Assembly (NCBI GenBank): GCA_041486365.1
Contig: JBGPLH010000063.1
Location: forward strand, 1 to 12,647
Source of the DNA: JBGPLH01 sp041486365 [NCBI: Thermodesulfobacteriota bacterium]
Lineage (GTDB): Bacteria > JAUYMQ01
Direction of reading: 5' to 3'
DNA length: 12,647 nt
In this document: positions 2,591 through 9,401 of the stretch, piece after piece
How the letters are laid out: each line of letters begins with the position of its first letter
Position numbering within the stretch: position 1 is the stretch's first letter
Made by a program: the position numbers and the translations under genes
The notes under the pieces: generated by a model
The model's database searches: none
Seen by the model: the letters and a program-made list of their open reading frames with translations, nothing else
What the model was told of the DNA's origin: nothing

Positions 2591-3589
2591 ATGAGCGATC
2601 CCGAATCGACTTTCCTCCTGCGCGCGACGCGCGAGCGTGCGGTCGCCGACGAGTGGGCCCTCGCGCTCTCGGCCGACGGCCTGGCGCCGCGCGTTTGGCC
2701 CTCGGGATACGGTTTCGCGATCGGGGTTCCCGAGTCCCAGGCCTCCCGGGCAGGCGACGTGCTCCGGATGTACGACCAGGAGAACCGGCGCGTGGCGGGG
2801 GCGCCGGCGCCGCCCGAAGGGTGGCCATCCCCTCCCGTCGGCGCGACGCGCCCTTCCGACTGGGAGGGCGAGGCTCCTGCCGAGCCATCCTGGAACGAGT
2901 TCAACCTGGAAGGGGTCGCCACCGCCGCCGCGATGCTCGCGTTCTTCTTCCTGACCGAGGCCGGGCGCCCCCTCGAGGGCTGGCTCGGCCGGGGGAGCGG
3001 CGACGCGGATCGGATCCTTCACGGCGAACCCTGGCGGGCGGTCACCGCGCTCACGCTGCACGTCGATTTCCCCCACGCCCTCGCCAACGCGTTCTTCCTG
3101 GCGCTCTTCCTTCCCGCTCTCTTCCGGGCGCTCGGCGGCGGAGTCGGGGGCCTCGCGTTCCTGCTCTCGGGGATCTCCGGCAACCTGCTGAGCGCGCTCT
3201 TCTACGGGGCCGATCATCGGGCGGTCGGGGCTTCGACGGCCTTGTTCGGCGCAGTGGGACTGCTCTCCGCCCTGGCCGCGGGGCGGCGCGTGCGCGCGCG
3301 TGGACAAGACCGGGCCGGGACCGGCGGAGGCCTTCGCGGTCGCGCCTGGATTCCGCTCGGAGCGGGGCTGGCCCTGCTCGGCCTGCTGGGCGCCGGAAGG
3401 CGGGCCGATCTCGTCGCGCATCTCTTCGGGCTTCTCTCGGGACTGTCGATCGGGGCGCTGCTCTCCCTCGCGCTGCCGCGCCGCGCGGGCGAGGCCGTCC
3501 AGCGGGTCTGCGGCGTGCTCGCCATCGCGCTGGTCGTGGCCTCCTGGCTCGCCGCGCTCCACCGCTTGGGGTCAGGCTTGACTTATTGA
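2591..3589 (+). CDS. Rhomboid-family intramembrane serine protease (332 aa)
   Basis: This polytopic inner-membrane protein has rhomboid catalytic features. In helix 2 there is HVDFPHALAN (H162 and N166, the HxxxN oxyanion pair). The nucleophile motif is GASTALFGAVG, with S215. The general base is in ADLVAHLFGLLSGL, with H277. The N-terminal ~65 residues are soluble and alpha/beta-like (resembling DUF2007/GlpG-type cytoplasmic domains). They are joined to the membrane core by a low-complexity linker (about 70-100) that contains a dispersed-repeat translation (WEGEAPAEPS). The last residues, GSGLTY, and the stop codon come from a 25-bp interspersed repeat, so the native C-terminus has probably been replaced. 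The start has no clear SD but lies 22 bases after the hydrolase stop, which suggests coupling. The catalytic Ser and His are intact, so it is probably active; substrates are unknown. Confidence 0.88.
   Translation: MSDPESTFLLRATRERAVADEWALALSADGLAPRVWPSGYGFAIGVPESQASRAGDVLRMYDQENRRVAGAPAPPEGWPSPPVGATRPSDWEGEAPAEPSWNEFNLEGVATAAAMLAFFFLTEAGRPLEGWLGRGSGDADRILHGEPWRAVTALTLHVDFPHALANAFFLALFLPALFRALGGGVGGLAFLLSGISGNLLSALFYGADHRAVGASTALFGAVGLLSALAAGRRVRARGQDRAGTGGGLRGRAWIPLGAGLALLGLLGAGRRADLVAHLFGLLSGLSIGALLSLALPRRAGEAVQRVCGVLAIALVVASWLAALHRLGSGLTY
2861..2886. repeat. GC-rich dispersed repeat read in frame inside the rhomboid gene
   Basis: The stretch GGGAGGGCGAGGCTCC followed by TGCCGAGCC encodes WEGEAPAEP in the rhomboid frame and GSAGASPSQ on the other strand. 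It contains a short palindrome, GGCTC (2872-2876) and GAGCC (2882-2886), around a 5-base loop. From memory, EGEAPAEP/GSAGASPSQ translations recur in many unrelated proteins of large environmental genomes (notably planctomycetes), which is why I call it a dispersed repeat; only one copy is in this window. The element may extend left to about 2819. Confidence 0.5.
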
Positions 3590-3592
3590 CTT
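3568..3592 (+). repeat. 25-bp interspersed direct repeat, copy 1
   Basis: This copy begins GGGGTCAGGC and continues TTGACTTATTGACTT, with an internal tandem TTGACTTA (3578-3585, 3586-3593). It is identical over 25 bases to copy 3 (7991) and differs at one base from copy 2 (4656). It lies across the 3' end of the rhomboid gene, giving its last codons and its TGA stop (3587-3589). Its sequence resembles units I recall next to REP-associated tyrosine transposase genes in other genomes; no transposase is present here. Confidence 0.85.
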
Positions 3593-3622
3593 ATTGGGCT
3601 CTGGGAGCGTGGGAGGAACGTC

Positions 3623-4651
3623 ATGCCGAAACAAAGCCGCCTGATCGGTCCCGACGGGAGCGTGCGCGTGGGGATTTTCCCGGATCCCGTCCGTGAAGTG
3701 AACTTCCGCGATTTCCGCCTGCGCACGCCCTTCGGCCGCCCGCGCGGCCCGCTCGCGCGCCACTTCGGCTTCAACCAGTTCCAGTTCCTCGGCATCCTCT
3801 CCGAGGAGCTGGTGCTCGGCTGTGCCATCGCGGACGTGAAGTTCCTCGGCACTTCCTTCGTGTATTGCTACGAGCCGTCCACACGCCGCCTGACGGAAGT
3901 CTCCTTCAAGGTCCCCCTCGCGATCGGCACCCGTTTCAATCAGACGCCCGAGACCGGCAGCGTCTCCTTCCGGATGGGAAAGAACCGGATCGAGATGATC
4001 GGGAGCGAGAGTCCGCGGCAGCGGCGGCTCCTGGTCGATCTCGCGCGCGGCGTGTCCATCGACGCTGTGTTCGACGAGGAGAAGCCCCCGATGCAGCCGA
4101 TGTTCATCTGCACGGAAGTCGGCGCGACGGGATGGGTCTTCGCCCGCAAGACCGCGGGCGTGCCGGTGACGGGAACCGTGCGGTGGGAGGGGAAGACCTG
4201 GGACCTCGCCGCGATCGGCGCCTTCGGGCACCACGACTGGAGCGCGGGCTACATGCGCCGGGAGACCTTCTGGAATTGGGGCTGCCTGGCCGGTCGCGCC
4301 TGGGACGGGCGTGTCGCGGGGATGAACGTCTCCTGCGGCGTGAACGAGACGAGCTTCACCGAGAACTGCTTCTGGGTGGACGGCCGCCTGCACAAGATCG
4401 ACACGGTGCACTTCGACTACGATCGCGAAGACCTCGACAAGCCCTGGCGACTGACTTCGTACGATGGCCGGATGAAACTGGAGTTCCGTCCGGAGGGGAA
4501 GCACGCGGAGAAGGTGAACGCCGGGTTGCTCGCGACCAACTTCGTGCAGCTCTTCGGCCGTTACCAGGGCTGGCTCGAGATCGCCCCGGGCGACCGCGTC
4601 GCGGTGGACGGCATGCTGGGCTACGCCGAGCGGCACTACGCGAAATGGTAG
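3623..4651 (+). CDS. DUF2804 domain protein (342 aa)
   Basis: This is a full-length DUF2804 protein of unassigned function. Recognisable landmarks are an N-terminal RLRTPFGRPRG, a central KVPLAIGTRFNQTPETGSVS segment, the strongly conserved GAFGHHDWSAGYMRRE (H203, H204, D205, W206) with ETFWNWGCLAG, and GMNVSCGVNETSFTENCFW. The rest is rich in beta strands (VHFDYDREDLDKPWRL, MKLEFRPEG), consistent with the lipocalin-like two-barrel folds proposed for related families. That points to binding or conversion of a hydrophobic ligand, but this is inference. There is no signal peptide or transmembrane segment. GGGAGG at 3611-3616, 6 bases before the ATG, supports the start. The gene is flanked on both sides by copies of the 25-bp repeat (ends at 3592 and 4656), as if it were a discrete module, and is convergent with the SDR gene. 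Confidence 0.85.
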   Translation: MPKQSRLIGPDGSVRVGIFPDPVREVNFRDFRLRTPFGRPRGPLARHFGFNQFQFLGILSEELVLGCAIADVKFLGTSFVYCYEPSTRRLTEVSFKVPLAIGTRFNQTPETGSVSFRMGKNRIEMIGSESPRQRRLLVDLARGVSIDAVFDEEKPPMQPMFICTEVGATGWVFARKTAGVPVTGTVRWEGKTWDLAAIGAFGHHDWSAGYMRRETFWNWGCLAGRAWDGRVAGMNVSCGVNETSFTENCFWVDGRLHKIDTVHFDYDREDLDKPWRLTSYDGRMKLEFRPEGKHAEKVNAGLLATNFVQLFGRYQGWLEIAPGDRVAVDGMLGYAERHYAKW

Positions 4652-4655
4652 GTCC

Positions 4656-4680
4656 GGGGTCAGGCATGACTTATTGACTT
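4656..4680 (+). repeat. 25-bp interspersed direct repeat, copy 2
   Basis: It begins GGGGTCAGGC and continues ATGACTTATTGACTT, with one change (T to A) from copies 1 and 3. It starts 5 bases after the DUF2804 stop. Similarity to copy 3 continues on the right, where copy 2 reads GATCGCCCCG and copy 3 AATCGCCTCG, and on the left through TCC. Confidence 0.83.
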
Positions 4681-4683
4681 GAT

Positions 4684-4719
4684 CGCCCCGTGCGACGGCA
4701 TCTGTGTCGACAGGGGGCG
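4684..4719. terminator. Imperfect hairpin between convergent genes
   Basis: CGCCCC (4684-4689) pairs with GGGGCG (4714-4719), and inside it CGAC (4693-4696) pairs with GTCG (4706-4709), leaving a 3x4 internal loop and a 9-base apical loop. It sits between the stops of the DUF2804 (+) and SDR (-) genes, directly after repeat copy 2. It could act as a bidirectional terminator or as the stem of the repeat element. There is no T-tract on either strand, so termination activity is uncertain. Confidence 0.3.
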
Positions 4720-4724
4720 CTCGC

Positions 4725-5591
4725 TCAGAGTCCCAGAACCTTCGCGAAGAAGGCGTCGAGCACGCGGTCGGGAAGCAGCCAGCGCAGGAACGCTTGAACC
4801 TTCGCCTCGGTGCCGATGAGCGTACGCGTCCTCGGCCGGGGCGACGTGAGCGCCGCCTCCACCGCCTTCGCCACCTCTTCAGGCGGAACCGCCCCCGCGC
4901 TCACCTTCTTTGCCGCCGCCCGCATCTTCTCGAGGGCCGTCCCGTAAAGTCGCTCTGCCTCCGGTGGAAGTTTCGCGAGCCGCTCGTCGGCGGCGGCCTC
5001 CGATTTGTCCCAGATCGGCGTGGCGACGGCGCCCGGCTCGATCAGTGAGACTTCCATGCCCGAGCCCCGCAGCTCCCGCCGGAGCGATTCATTGAGCGCG
5101 GCGAGCGCCGACTTCGAGGCCGCGTAGGGGCCCACGAAGGGCAGGGCGTTGCGGTCGCCGATCGACCCGATGTTCACGATCCGCCCCTTCGCCCGCCGCA
5201 GGAGCGGGAGGAAGGCCTGCGTCACCGCGACGGCACCGATCACGTTCACCTCGAACTGCTTGCGCAGGTCGTCCAGAGGGACGAACTCCAGCGGCGACGA
5301 GACGACAATCCCCGCGTTGTTGACGAGCCCCGCGAGCCCCGCGTCCCCCACTGCCGCCCGGACCTCCTTGGCCGCCTGCTCGATCGCGGCGGCGTTCGTC
5401 ACGTCGAGCAGGAGGGGCGAGAGGCGTCCCGATCCCTCCCGGCCGATCCGCTCCGCGTCGGCCTGCGAGCGGACACCCGCGAAGACGAGGTAACCCAGGC
5501 CCGCCAGGTGAAGCGCGCACGCGTGGCCGATTCCCGTGGACGCTCCCGTGACGACGACCGCCCCTTTACCCACGTTCCCGTTCGCTGCCAT
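4725..5591 (-). CDS. Short-chain dehydrogenase/reductase (SDR), 288 aa
   Basis: This is a classical SDR, an NAD(P)(H)-dependent alcohol/ketone oxidoreductase in the cytosol. The Rossmann nucleotide motif is TGASTGIG (residues 15-22), followed by the adenine-ring Asp in LLLDVT (D63) and NNAG (91-94). The catalytic set is S143 (NIGSIG) with YAASK (Y156, K160), then EPGAVATPIW. The R following the second strand (GVRS, about 41) suggests a preference for NADP(H). Length and the substrate-loop region (WDKSEAAADERLAKL) resemble the retinol/17-beta-hydroxysteroid dehydrogenase-like branch, but the substrate cannot be read from sequence. The ATG is preceded by GAGGTG about 7 bases upstream. It is the last gene of the minus-strand cluster, 100 bases after the TetR stop, with a palindrome in that gap, so it may be both read through from upstream and separately controlled. 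Confidence 0.92.
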   Translation of the reverse strand: MAANGNVGKGAVVVTGASTGIGHACALHLAGLGYLVFAGVRSQADAERIGREGSGRLSPLLLDVTNAAAIEQAAKEVRAAVGDAGLAGLVNNAGIVVSSPLEFVPLDDLRKQFEVNVIGAVAVTQAFLPLLRRAKGRIVNIGSIGDRNALPFVGPYAASKSALAALNESLRRELRGSGMEVSLIEPGAVATPIWDKSEAAADERLAKLPPEAERLYGTALEKMRAAAKKVSAGAVPPEEVAKAVEAALTSPRPRTRTLIGTEAKVQAFLRWLLPDRVLDAFFAKVLGL

Positions 5592-5633
5592 CCGGACACC
5601 TCGCTCCCGAAAATGACCTTTGCTCGATACCCC

Positions 5634-5647
5634 GAACCGCCCGGTTC
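5634..5647. promoter_or_regulatory. Candidate TetR operator upstream of the SDR gene
   Basis: GAACCG-CC-CGGTTC is a perfect 6-base inverted repeat with a 2-base spacer, 43 bases upstream of the SDR start, in the 100-base gap after the TetR gene. Size and position fit a TetR-family dimer site that could block an SDR promoter. I saw no second copy upstream of the iron-sulfur gene. Assignment to this TetR is inference. Confidence 0.45.
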
Positions 5648-5691
5648 ATCCGGACGGCAGGGCTCATCCTGACTCGCCCGCCTCCGCCGGG

Positions 5692-6357
5692 TCAAGCCGG
5701 ACTGGGGTCCTGCCCGAGGTACGCGGCGAGACACCGGGTGACTTCGCGGACGTAGGCCTCCTCGTTCTTTCCCTTCCCGCGCAGAAAACAGTCCCGCAGC
5801 GAGCTCTCGACGAGGCCGAACTGGATCTCCGCCGCGACGCCCGGGTCCATGGGTGGCGTCAATCCTTCGGCGATCCAGCGGCGCAGCGCGGCCTCGACGG
5901 CCGCGACCATGCGGGCCCGGTTCGCGTCGCGGGCCGGACCGCCTTCGTGCGGATCGTTCGTGAGGAGGAACACCGCGAGAGGCCCGTCCGACTCGCGAAC
6001 GTACCGGTAGATGTTGCGAACGATCACCCCGATGTCGGCCGGATGGAGGTCGGCGTTCACGCCGCCGAAGGCCGCCTCCGCGAGCCCCCTCCCGTAGCGG
6101 TCTCCCACCGCCGCGAGCAGCCGCGCCTTGGACGCGAAGAGGTGGTACACCGTTCCCTCCGCGACGCCGGCCTCCTTCGCGATCTCGTCCACGCGCGAGG
6201 CCCTGAAGCCGCGCCGGGCGAAGATCCGCGCGGCCGTCTCCAGGATCCGCGTGCGCCTCCCCTCGGGATCCTGCGTCCAGGTCCGCCTGGCCCGCGTCGC
6301 GCGGGCCGGCGACTTCGCGGCCGCCGTGCCCGCTCTGCGCGCGGCCGACGCCTTCAT
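5692..6357 (-). CDS. TetR-family transcriptional regulator (221 aa)
   Basis: This is a one-component DNA-binding repressor with an N-terminal helix-turn-helix. RRTRILETAARIFARRGF (about 34-51) forms helix 1. RVDEIAKEAGVAEGTVYHLF (about 55-74) is the HTH with the characteristic GTVYxHF-like recognition helix, followed by KARLLAAV. The rest (about 90-221) is the alpha-helical ligand/dimer domain. The first ~30 residues are a basic, Ala/Arg-rich extension. The ATG at 6357 shares its A with the stop of the upstream iron-sulfur gene (TGATG), a classical translational-coupling arrangement. This supports the start over much longer in-frame readings that run into the upstream gene. Being co-translated with an enzyme gene and followed by an SDR suggests it senses a substrate or product of this cluster; the ligand is unknown. 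Confidence 0.9.
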   Translation of the reverse strand: MKASAARRAGTAAAKSPARATRARRTWTQDPEGRRTRILETAARIFARRGFRASRVDEIAKEAGVAEGTVYHLFASKARLLAAVGDRYGRGLAEAAFGGVNADLHPADIGVIVRNIYRYVRESDGPLAVFLLTNDPHEGGPARDANRARMVAAVEAALRRWIAEGLTPPMDPGVAAEIQFGLVESSLRDCFLRGKGKNEEAYVREVTRCLAAYLGQDPSPA

Positions 6358-7979
6358 CACGACACCCGCCCCGCGCCGCCGCGCCGCCGCCAGGCCCTTC
6401 GTGCGTGCCAGGCAATCCGGTGGAAGATTGTCTCGCCCGGCGGGAAGCCGAAGATGCGGGGGAACGCGAGGAAGAGCCGACGGTTCCCGGAGAGTCGCAC
6501 CCGCCCGAGGAGCAGCGCCCAGACCGGGCTCGCCTCGCGCCGGTGGATCGCGAGGTAGACCGCGCCCGTGGAACGGATCGTGAGATCGGGTCGTTCCGCC
6601 TCGCCTGGGAACACGTCGCAACGCTGGTCCGCGACGCGGATGACCCAGCGGCCCCCACCCTCGCCCGTGAGATGGATCTGCGCGGTGAAGTTCAAGCCCT
6701 TCGCCTCGGTGGACCGGAAGTAATGGGGCATGTTGCGCATCATCGAGTCGATGTTGTTCGTGCGGATGCGCGGGAGCGTGACGAGCCGCACTCCCCGCGC
6801 GGAGGGCTTCGCGATGTCGGGCGGCGTGCGCCATTCGCCGGGGGGGATGCCGTGCTTCTCGCGGGCGCTCTCCGTGTCGATCACGAATTGCTCGTCGGCC
6901 TCGGCCCGCTGGCGGGAGAGCGGCTTCAGGACGTGATCGAGGTAGTCCCGGCGCACGCGCTTGTCGGCGTGGAAGAGGTCGGCCATCTCGGCCGGGCAGG
7001 TCGATACGCAGTTGAAGCAGCGGTACTCGACCTTGAAGGCCATCGATTGCCAGAGCGCCGCCAGCTCAGCGTCGCTCCAGCGCTTCTCGAAGCGCTTTGG
7101 ATTCGCCTCGCCGAGATCGCGCATCAGATCGAGGAACCCGGGGATCGAGTCGCGGTAGGTGTGGTTGTAGCAGGCGAAGAAGTCGAACTGCCCGTCGCTC
7201 TTGATCGCCTCCGTCGGGCAGGACGCCACACAGAGGTTGCATTCGACGCAGGGGTTCCACGCGATCGGCTTGTCCCATTCCGGCGCAGGGAACTCGAGGT
7301 TCGTGAGCACGGTGTCGATCAGGCAGTAGGCGCCGAACTCCCGGTGCAGAAGGTTGCGGCTGAGGCCGATCACCCCGAGCCCCGCGGCCTGCGCGACGAG
7401 CTTGTGCGAGAGCGGCCAGATCTTGTCGGCCCAGCGCTGTGACACCTCCTGGGGCCATCCGATCGTCGTGGAGAGGCCCTCGCCGCCCAGCCCGTTGATC
7501 GCCCGGACCGTCAGGCGGCTCATCTCGAAGACCCGCTCCTCGCAGGTGTACAGCTCGTGGTTCGCCGTGGGCAGGTAGCGCGACTGCATCGCCGCGCGGT
7601 TCTCCCCGGCAATCAGGCAGACGAGGCTGCGCGTGTGAGGGTAGATCCAGAGGATCTCGTCGCGCTCGTGGGCGATGGCCGGATCGTCGATCGAGATGAT
7701 CCCGACGTCGTCGGCGAACGCGAGGATCCGTTTCTTGAAGTTCTCGGCCGAGAGCGGGGCGCGCAAGGCGCGCTGGGGGATCGCCTGGCCGTCCAGCGCC
7801 TGCATGTCCACGAAGGGGAACCGGTGCGCCGAGTGTGGCGGGAGCGTCTTGTCCCGCGGGCGGCCCGGGGCGGGGAAGGGGAACGCCCAGTCCTTATAAG
7901 AGTTGCGGTGTCCGCGCGGCGTCGCGGGCCCCGCTTCGCCCTCCTCGGGAGGCGCCTCACTCCTTCGCGATCGGAACAT
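6357..7979 (-). CDS. QueG-like 2x[4Fe-4S] protein fused to a C-terminal SCP2 sterol-carrier domain (540 aa)
   Basis: This is a cytosolic redox protein with two modules. Residues ~75-230 resemble the core of epoxyqueuosine reductase/reductive-dehalogenase-like enzymes: DDVGIISID, then AAGLGVIGLSRNLLHREFG followed by AYCLIDTVLTNLEF. Next is CVECNLCVASCP (C244, C247, C250, C254), then C270 and CFNCVSTCP (C321, C324, C328), the cysteine set for two 4Fe-4S clusters as in QueG, with an enlarged segment between C270 and C321. Residues ~415-510 (GLNFTAQIHLTG, GRWVIRVADQRCDVFPG, DLTIRSTGAVYLAI, LLLGRVRLSGNRRLF) match an SCP2 lipid/sterol-carrier domain. The QueG signature around the catalytic Asp is not evident, so tRNA modification is unlikely; cobalamin use is possible but unproven. 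I infer reduction of a hydrophobic ligand held by SCP2. The start is supported by GGAGG (7986-7990), 6 bases away. TetR overlaps its stop; SDR follows. Confidence 0.88.
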   Translation of the reverse strand: MFRSRRSEAPPEEGEAGPATPRGHRNSYKDWAFPFPAPGRPRDKTLPPHSAHRFPFVDMQALDGQAIPQRALRAPLSAENFKKRILAFADDVGIISIDDPAIAHERDEILWIYPHTRSLVCLIAGENRAAMQSRYLPTANHELYTCEERVFEMSRLTVRAINGLGGEGLSTTIGWPQEVSQRWADKIWPLSHKLVAQAAGLGVIGLSRNLLHREFGAYCLIDTVLTNLEFPAPEWDKPIAWNPCVECNLCVASCPTEAIKSDGQFDFFACYNHTYRDSIPGFLDLMRDLGEANPKRFEKRWSDAELAALWQSMAFKVEYRCFNCVSTCPAEMADLFHADKRVRRDYLDHVLKPLSRQRAEADEQFVIDTESAREKHGIPPGEWRTPPDIAKPSARGVRLVTLPRIRTNNIDSMMRNMPHYFRSTEAKGLNFTAQIHLTGEGGGRWVIRVADQRCDVFPGEAERPDLTIRSTGAVYLAIHRREASPVWALLLGRVRLSGNRRLFLAFPRIFGFPPGETIFHRIAWHARRAWRRRGGAGRVS

Positions 7980-7985
7980 CTGCTC

Positions 7986-7990
7986 CCTCC
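7986..7990 (-). promoter_or_regulatory. Ribosome binding site abutting repeat copy 3
   Basis: GGAGG on the minus strand lies 6 bases before the ATG of the iron-sulfur/SCP2 gene. It directly touches the edge of the 25-bp repeat (7991), so the repeat forms the gene's 5' leader or promoter-proximal DNA. Confidence 0.6.
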
Positions 7991-8015
7991 GGGGTCAGGC
8001 TTGACTTATTGACTT
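7991..8015 (+). repeat. 25-bp interspersed direct repeat, copy 3
   Basis: It is identical to copy 1 over 25 bases, beginning GGGGTCAGGC and containing tandem TTGACTTA (8001-8008, 8009-8016). It lies immediately upstream of the iron-sulfur/SCP2 gene, in the same + orientation as copies 1 and 2. A long hairpin begins 13 bases to its right. Confidence 0.85.
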
Positions 8016-8028
8016 AATCGCCTCGCGT

Positions 8029-8062
8029 GGGGCCATATTTGAGGCCGCCTCAAATATGCCCC
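8029..8062. repeat. Long stem-loop next to repeat copy 3
   Basis: This is an almost perfect inverted repeat. GGGG, an extra C, then CATATTTGAGG on the left pairs with CCTCAAATATG then CCCC on the right, around a 3-base CCG centre. The stem is 15 base pairs with a single bulged C at 8033 or 8034. The AT-rich middle of the stem stands out from the GC-rich surroundings. There is no T-tract after it on either strand. It may be the structural half of the repeat element (REP-like) or a transcription barrier between divergent units. Confidence 0.6.
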
Positions 8063-8184: not shown

Positions 8185-8391
8185 TCAGGGCCCGAAGGGA
8201 CCGCTGGTCCAGGTCACGGCCGCGAGGTCCTTCTGCCCCTTGGCGGACGGGTGGAAGCAGTCGAAGGGGGAGACCTGATTGGAGACGAAGGTGTAGTTCG
8301 CCGAATCGCTGCCGTACTGGTAGTAGTGATTCGTGTCGTTGGTGTTGTACTCGTTACGGAGGATCCGGGCGGCCTGTCGCCGGACCAGACA
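8185..8391 (-). pseudogene. 3' remnant of an SGNH/GDSL-family hydrolase gene
   Basis: Read on the minus strand, this stretch gives NEYNTNDTNHYYQYGSDSAN, then YTFVSNQVSPFDCFHPSAKG and QKDLAAVTWTSGPFGP, then TGA (8187-8185). SPFDCFHPSAKGQ is the C-terminal catalytic block of SGNH/GDSL esterases (Asp and His in DxxHP, then SxxGQ..LA..W). There is no start codon in frame, and an in-frame TGA lies at about 8449-8451, inside the methyltransferase gene. Only the last ~60 codons remain, so the catalytic Ser (GDSL), Gly and Asn blocks are gone. A strong hairpin follows it. It is most simply a gene truncated when the region to its 5' side was replaced by the methyltransferase gene. The exact left limit of the homology is uncertain. 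Confidence 0.65.
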
Positions 8392-8402
8392 TGGGAGGAA
8401 TG

Positions 8403-9401
8403 ATGATCCGCACGACGGTGGTCGGCTCCTGGCCGATCCCGGTTGGTCTCAAGCCGCGGCTCACCGCCTACTACAAGGGAGCGCTCGGCGATGAGGAGGC
8501 GCACGACGTGCTCCAGGCGGCGGCGCGAATTGCCATGGACGAGCAGCGGGCCTGTGGGCTCGATCAGATCATGGGCGGGGAGGTCTTCGCGCCGGACTTC
8601 GTGCACCACGTCCCGCCGCGTCTCGCCGGGATCCGCTGCCTGAAGCCCCGCGATCACCGGGCGGGCTACGAGGGCATCGCGTCCTACGAGATCGAGGGGG
8701 ACATCAATGCGCCTCGCGGGACCGGGCATGCGCTCGCGTACCGGCGCGAGAAGGCCATCGAGCCGCGGCTGGACAAGGCGGCCGTGCCGGCGCCGCTCAC
8801 GATGACGATCCCCTTCCTCGGCGACCCGCGCCGGGAGGAGCAGATGGAGAACGTGGCGCGCGTCGTGGAATCCGAGGTCCTCGACATGGCGGCCGCGGGC
8901 GCCGCCGAGGTTCAGCTCGACGCACCGGCGGAAGCCGTGGCGCTCCTCACGGGCGCGCAGGGCGTGGAGGACGTGCTCCGCTGGCTCCTCTACCCCTTCC
9001 GGAACGCGAAGAAGATCCGGCGCACGATCCACTTCTGCCTGGGCGACATGGGCCGGCGGCCTTTCACGCAGGAGCAGAACTTGCACGCGCTGCTCCCCGC
9101 GCTCGAGGGTCTCGAAGGGCGGGTGGACCGCGTGCACCTGGAGTGCTCCTACGCGGGGCAGTGGAAGGAGCGGGATCTGCTCGGGGAGGTGCCCTCGTCC
9201 ATCGAGATCATCGCGGGGATCGCCGACGTGAAGCGCGAGCCGCAGAGCGTGGAGGACCTGCGGGAGAAGATCGCCGCGCTGCGGGAGGTAATCCCGGACA
9301 AGCGCCTGCTCGTCTCCTCGTCCTGCGGCTGCGGGCGTCAGACATCCGAAGAGGCGCGGGCGCTCATGACGAACCTCGTCCGGGCGGCGCGATCGGTATG
9401 A
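8403..9401 (+). CDS. Core-MetE-like cobalamin-independent methionine synthase family protein (332 aa)
   Basis: This is a single-domain member of the MetE C-terminal/UROD-MetE barrel family, which transfers methyl groups to a zinc-bound thiol. It opens with the typical MIRTTVVGSWPIP and ends with the zinc-site region. Ligand candidates are H210 and C212 (IHFCLGD), E247 (VHLECSY) and C308 or C310 (SSSCGCGRQ), in MetE order. At 332 residues it lacks the N-terminal half of canonical MetE (about 750 aa), which binds the polyglutamyl folate. It therefore probably takes methyl groups from a corrinoid protein or another donor, or acts on a different thiol. GGAGG at 8394-8398 favours the start at 8403 over the in-frame ATGs at 8391 and 8400; the former lacks an SD. 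Its SD lies at the truncated end of the SGNH remnant. It is convergent with the metallohydrolase gene, 19 bases apart. Confidence 0.88.
   Translation: MIRTTVVGSWPIPVGLKPRLTAYYKGALGDEEAHDVLQAAARIAMDEQRACGLDQIMGGEVFAPDFVHHVPPRLAGIRCLKPRDHRAGYEGIASYEIEGDINAPRGTGHALAYRREKAIEPRLDKAAVPAPLTMTIPFLGDPRREEQMENVARVVESEVLDMAAAGAAEVQLDAPAEAVALLTGAQGVEDVLRWLLYPFRNAKKIRRTIHFCLGDMGRRPFTQEQNLHALLPALEGLEGRVDRVHLECSYAGQWKERDLLGEVPSSIEIIAGIADVKREPQSVEDLREKIAALREVIPDKRLLVSSSCGCGRQTSEEARALMTNLVRAARSV

Follow-up and report, generated by a model that had tools for sequence, protein, structure and literature searches.

Transposable elements in which a tyrosine transposase gene is flanked by terminal inverted repeats (TIRs) sharing the motif GGGGWSAS, termed TIRYT or TIRtron, were described by Di Nocera et al. 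2013 (PMC3733652), who also reported families of TIR repeats in some genomes, occurring singly, as dimers or in groups. In a later survey by Quentin et al. 2018 (PMC6006769), 20 of 26 TIRYT transposases belong to subclass 2.1, whose tails are of the HTH or Bac_DnaA_C type; the sections of that survey drawn on here report no REP-like sequences with this subclass. Two further systems bear comparison, namely the REP/REPIN sequences with their RAYT (TnpA-REP) transposases, and the IS200/IS605 elements. Canonical REPs carry a GT[AG]G foot and a longer palindrome, while IS200 ends are subterminal hairpins rather than inverted terminal repeats, and the IS200 transposases are without a DnaA-C tail.

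The present study concerns three copies of a 25-bp repeat in a stretch of 12,647 nucleotides (the window) from a Thermodesulfobacteriota bacterium (contig JBGPLH010000063.1). Judged by sequence comparison, the three repeats are very probably solo terminal-repeat copies of a TIRYT-type transposable element, a reading to which we assign a probability of about 85%. Within the window the unit alone is visible, and the features of a TIRYT TIR family that were looked for are found in a relative, the JAUYMQ01 MAG 'Deltaproteobacteria bacterium C24_metabat.bin.90' (G001). The features of the window are listed in Table 1.

Table 1. Genes, repeat units and palindromic features around the three repeats of the window.
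Feature	Position	Strand	Remarks
Rhomboid gene	2591-3589		Pfam
TIR-type unit copy 1 (solo)	3568-3592	+	0 mismatches; overlaps rhomboid ORF 3' end
DUF2804 gene (PF10974)	3623-4651		Pfam
TIR-type unit copy 2 (solo)	4656-4680	+	1 mismatch; between convergent DUF2804 and SDR genes
Stem-loop between convergent genes	4681-4722		After copy 2, not part of repeat
SDR gene	4725-5591	minus	Pfam
TetR gene	5692-6357	minus	Pfam
Fe-S/SCP2 protein gene	6357-7979	minus	SCP2 over cut-off, 4Fe-4S models below cut-off
TIR-type unit copy 3 (solo)	7991-8015	+	0 mismatches; 5' leader of minus-strand Fe-S/SCP2-TetR-SDR genes
Perfect 12+1+12 palindrome, TetR-operator-like	8034-8058		Adjoins copy 3, not part of repeat
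Meth_synt_2 gene	8391-9401		Pfam

The unit reads GGGGTCAGGC(T/A)TGACTTATTGACTT and is built of GGGGTCAGGC followed by a doubled TTGACTTA. At its outer end, GGGGTCAG provides the GGGGWSAS motif in 3/3 window copies. The initial annotation of this DNA had reported three same-strand repeats at gene borders, each with a doubled TTGACTTA-like unit, and this description holds: the copies all lie on the plus strand at those borders with 0-1 mismatch, the doubled unit is present, and dinucleotide-shuffled windows (n=200) contained no copy of the 25-mer. It had also placed DUF2804 alone between copies 1 and 2, and SDR, TetR and Fe-S/SCP2 between copies 2 and 3, which Pfam and the ORFs bear out; no transposase gene is among the genes recognised between the units. 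The flanks of copies 2 and 3 are similar, with the three preceding bases and 8/10 following bases identical. The rhomboid ORF ends within copy 1, which covers its final 22 bases including the stop TGA (3587-3589), and the C-terminus ...WLAALHRLGSGLTY of the window rhomboid takes its last 6 residues, as well as its stop, from copy 1. The DUF2804 stop is separated from copy 2 by a 4-base gap. Between copy 3 and the Fe-S/SCP2 ATG (7979, minus strand) there is an 11-base gap containing the ribosome-site-like GGAGGGAG, which directly abuts the unit, and copy 3 is placed between this stretch and the operator-like palindrome of the operon.

The hairpins that the initial annotation had noted after copies 2 and 3 are both there, but their sequences are unrelated and only that of copy 3 clearly folds better than shuffled sequence (window:8022-8066, z -5.40, with 0/200 shuffles folding as well, against z -1.57 and 16/200 shuffles as good for window:4650-4725, which spans copy 2 and its hairpin). 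Neither is retained as a part of the repeat, the copy 2 hairpin because its sequence differs from that of the copy 3 hairpin, and the latter because its core precedes the same operon in a unit-free G001 locus. This core, TTGAGSCCGSCTCAA, has its sole window site at 8039-8053 (≤2 mismatches; 0.09 expected), and in the 4.1-Mb G001 it is found (≤1 mismatch) only at C41:524-538 and C41:556-570 (reversed control 0), both sites being upstream of the Fe-S-TetR orthologues in a stretch free of units. The 8034-8058 palindrome is best read as a predicted autoregulatory TetR operator, while the stem-loop at 4681-4722 possibly serves as a transcription end.

In genome_contigs, a search for the 25-mer with one base left free gave 14 stretches, 10 of them in the JAUYMQ01 MAG, 2 in a Nitrospinota MAG, and 1 each in a Nitrospiria genome and in Desulforamulus putei. 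At ≤3 mismatches, G001 contains 18 copies (8 forward and 10 reverse; reversed control pattern 0), the Nitrospinota MAG 5, and the Nitrospiria and Desulforamulus genomes 1 each. In a plain mismatch scan of the individual loci, allowing substitutions only, 100 shuffled units averaged 0.14 matches (maximum 2), and the diverged partners mentioned below (L092:160, L103:3508 and L099:3413) come from a separate fuzzy-regex scan. A viral origin was rejected, the 25-mer having no match in viral_contigs. G001 is also the closest genome to the window among those compared, that is, in comparisons of the whole window with G001 and of window:3400-8200 with 98 genomes (relatives of G001, G001 itself included). 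With the latter query, 13 genomes gave any match, G001 scoring 1287 bits and the runner-up 153. For six stretches of genes in the window, alignment to G001 gave 70-75% DNA identity, each stretch matching a different contig.

The candidate parent element was found in G001. The initial annotation had suggested looking for a Y1 transposase gene bordered by the repeat, and one is present on contig C244 (L092, identical to L010), as a 1,060-bp element at 160-1219. Its right end is an exact, reverse-oriented unit (1195-1219), which overlaps the 3' end of the Y1 ORF (260-1204), and its left end is a diverged forward unit (160-184, 4 edits). The ORF encodes a 314-aa transposase matching PF01797 Y1_Tnp (4.8e-10) and PF08299 Bac_DnaA_C (6.9e-10), both above the Pfam cut-offs, and containing the motifs NHLH (HUH) and YIHQNP (Y...NP). 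Against the NCBIfam REP-transposase model it scores 63.8 bits, under the 80-bit cut-off, and its one match by sequence in the PDB (E ≤0.1) is DnaA, over the tail. The L092 copy may be inactive, its left end being degenerate. The four unit-bearing genomes G001-G004 contain 3, 4, 4 and 8 PF01797 matches, respectively. The second G001 Y1 gene (C110) is bordered by inverted ends of another sequence (GGGGTCAGACCCC...), and no such inverted ends were found for the third (C176). In G002, exact units are present but none lies beside the gene at its four Y1 loci.

Besides the complete element, G001 contains paired and solo units. Its 18 units comprise 3 facing pairs (6 units) within 140 bp, 2 units with a diverged partner, 1 element end, and 9 for which a partner was not seen. 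Inverted pairs of 79-132 bp occur at L095, L101, L102 and L103, with end-to-end single-strand folding in four pairs at z -5.0 to -8.2. The stem of the unit itself is GTCA/TGAC, of 4 bp only (-2.2 kcal/mol as DNA). Target duplications of more than 3 bases were not seen when 21 pairs or elements were searched for exact flanking repeats. The trinucleotide ACC directly precedes GGGG in 11/18 G001 units, and among five paired or full elements it is found on one side only in four and on both sides in the fifth. These are small numbers, and the one-sided ACC hints at a resemblance to the one-sided target of IS200/IS605.

Inverted ends of this type were also found at loci of homologous transposases. 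With the G001 transposase as query, matches at E ≤1e-20 were found in 55/192 genomes (relatives of G001, with G001 included), and 30 homologue loci were laid out, of which 29 were parsed (L122 was left out). Inverted GGGWSAS-type ends with at least 15/24 bases agreeing were present in 16/29 loci (14 at ≥18 and 2 at 15-16), weak inverted ends in 2/29 (11 and 13 of 24), and none in 11/29; the reversed-motif control gave pairs in 3 loci, the best at 11/24. The GGGWSAS motif behind these counts was picked after seeing earlier loci, yet agrees with the published GGGGWSAS. The 11 loci without ends include L106, which is the G001 element itself and escaped the motif owing to a T missing from its left end, and L108 and L134, which lie near a contig edge. 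A frequent end form among the homologues is GGGGTCAGGTCTTGACATTTGACAT, which is built like the window unit.

The G001 element resembles TIRYT/TIRtron in having a Y1 gene bordered by inverted GGGGWSAS repeats (here GGGGTCAG), and in its moderately abundant dispersed copies, which are single, dimeric or grouped in the published families, where overlaps with gene ends are drawn too (PMC3733652). It differs in that the unit of GGGGTCAGGC and doubled TTGACTTA and the present hosts do not appear in the text of that paper as drawn on here, and the window carries solo copies only, without a transposase gene. A literature text search for GGGGTCAGG together with transposase returned only papers on eukaryotic or medical subjects, as judged by title and the start of the abstract. 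By domain and motif alone, the transposase is placed in TnpA-Y1 subclass 2.1, whose HUH and Y...NP core, C-terminal Bac_DnaA_C and few copies per genome it shares; unlike in that survey, which in the sections used here had no such case, the end of the G001 gene itself belongs to a dispersed repeat family (PMC6006769). With IS200/IS605, the element shares the Y1/HUH transposase family (PF01797); target duplication was not seen here.

The units tend to be sited at gene ends. A predicted gene 3' end lies ≤30 bp from 15/23 units (20 of G001, including the diverged L092:160 and L103:3508, and the 3 of the window), compared with 7.3% of random positions at the same loci, and 2/23 units lie inside a predicted gene compared with 82% of random positions, both figures leaning the same way and the pairs not being independent. 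Genes were predicted by a custom codon score, for which ten genes of the window served as the training set, and the 15/23 figure is biased upward because the unit carries stop codons, which end any frame entering it, even in a gene cut by an insertion. When gene ends outside the unit only are counted, the figure is 7/23 against 7.3% expected (P about 0.001). Siting at gene ends is thus a tendency of the unit family that is independent of gene identity. Copy 3 departs from it, lying 5' of its neighbour gene. The units occur in both orientations relative to genes, and the GC skew of the contigs, considered for unit orientation, is everywhere within 0.035 of zero.

This siting would also fit units that serve the host in regulation or processing, whether as protein-binding sites, as RNA elements or within a terminator, and that resemble transposon ends by chance, as two of the three window copies stand at gene 3' ends and the third in a 5' leader beside the operator-like palindrome, in line with the 15/23 proportion. 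We consider this very unlikely, given that one Y1 transposase gene has an exact copy as its end, that inverted pairs exist, that the 25-mer (bar its free position) is shared by unrelated phyla, that orthologous G001 genes are without the unit, and that the orientation relative to genes is not fixed.

It had further been proposed that the direct repeats are recombination borders, allowing deletion or exchange of the DUF2804 or the SDR-TetR-Fe-S module. The three direct copies in one orientation at the borders would fit this, as would the difference in gene order between the window and G001, where orthologues are spread over six contigs (DUF2804 on C2, Fe-S/TetR on C41, SDR on C408, metallo-beta-lactamase-like on C29, DUF1330-like on C80 and methionine-synthase-like on C180). 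However, the unit is absent at ≤7 substitutions from the examined G001 stretches with orthologues of seven window genes (L087, L059, L090, L088, L091 and L089; three of these cover whole contigs). Gene order also differs at borders without a unit, with the metallo-beta-lactamase-like, DUF1330-like and methionine-synthase-like genes each on its own contig, and the units of G001 flank other genes. A length of 25 bp is also short for homologous recombination. Contig C41 ends soon after TetR, which hides whether SDR comes next. The leader of the orthologous Fe-S gene in G001, read beside that of the window, is without the unit, and G001 DUF2804 ends with the same codons as in the window (CACTACGCGAAATGG), followed by TGA with no unit after it. 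The G001 rhomboid homologue on C480 ends in ...WVVALR and a stop, as against the window end encoded by copy 1; the stretch surrounding it is unit-free, and an inverted pair lies about 6 kb away on the same contig. Module deletion or swapping was accordingly rejected as unsupported, and we hold recombination between the repeats to be very unlikely.

In part the initial annotation was right: it had raised the mobilisation of non-autonomous units by a transposase of the Y1 type, which gains good support from G001, where the 25-mer ends a Y1 gene and has solo and inverted-pair copies. The REP class that it had suggested for them is not the exact one. Canonical REP/REPIN sequences of a RAYT would share the dispersal as non-autonomous solo and inverted-pair intergenic repeats, as well as the superfamily of their Y1 transposase, but the unit reads GGGGTCAGGCTTGAC..., without a GT[AG]G foot or long palindrome and with a stem of merely 4 bp, and the DnaA-C tail points to subclass 2.1, which is without reported REP sequences, so that this identity is ruled out as extremely improbable.

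The reading as solo ends of a TIRYT-type element suggests the following mechanism. The parent would be an element of ~1 kb with inverted units at both ends and one Y1/HUH transposase gene, the product of which has a C-terminal DnaA-like helix-turn-helix. The transposase would recognise the unit as single-stranded DNA, through the GTCA/TGAC mini-hairpin beside GGGG and then the TTGACTTA repeats, and its HUH and tyrosine residues would cut and join the unit in the manner of IS200/IS605 and TnpA-REP, leaving the target unduplicated. The result would be a scattering of pairs and single ends, often to gene 3' ends, and the window would contain three such insertions at three gene borders. That the units delimit genes would then reflect where insertions are tolerated, rather than any movement of the genes as modules.

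A broader generalisation, which we offer as doubtful speculation, is that Y1 transposases of the DnaA-tailed subclass 2.1 disperse miniature and solo TIR units with a preference for gene 3' ends, at which the units may supply new stops, as in the window rhomboid, and thereby tailor gene ends in several phyla. For the most part the repeats look ordinary, as scattered ends of a known small bacterial transposon type that have settled between genes. For the window, the unsupported 'exchangeable module' account is removed, and the repeat is separated from the neighbouring operator-like palindrome. For the family, a Y1 transposase with a DnaA tail is now linked to dispersed repeats, its subclass being reported without REP-like repeats in the sections of PMC6006769 drawn on here, and the sharing of one 25-mer by the solo, paired and full forms makes the origin of solo TIR units testable.

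The window contains a palindrome that resembles a TetR operator and precedes the Fe-S/SCP2-TetR-SDR genes on their upstream side; the core of this palindrome occurs twice in G001 (a JAUYMQ01 MAG, the closest relative among the genomes compared), both times upstream of the orthologous genes and nowhere else in that genome. An open stretch reaching the start of the Meth_synt_2 gene may be what is left of the C-terminal part of a lipase/SGNH-like gene; DNA resembling window positions 8194-8355 was found twice in G001, at 74-77%.

Features and their coordinates
Feature	Location	Strand	Sequence detail
Palindrome	window 8034-8058
Open stretch	window about 8188-8400	minus	ends ...FDCFHPSAKGQKDLAAVTWTSGPFGP-stop
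Second G001 Y1 transposase gene	L094 5812-6926 (G001:C110)		inverted ends GGGGTCAGACCCCTTTA...

The 25-mer is present, identical, in Nitrospinota, Nitrospiria and Desulforamulus genomes (L002, L011, L003, L004). It is arranged as inverted pairs in the Nitrospinota MAG, and the exact unit was not seen adjoining any of the four Y1 loci inspected there.

The second Y1 transposase gene of G001 is bordered by different inverted ends, and this genome therefore holds two such families. Among the loci of transposases homologous to the G001 Y1 transposase, the transposase frame crosses the right end in ten elements (L107, L109, L114, L115, L117, L118, L121, L123, L125 and L127), with 6 bases from the last sense codon to the element end. 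Because the frame stops only at the TGA within the outermost TGACCC, the protein tail is encoded by the terminal repeat.
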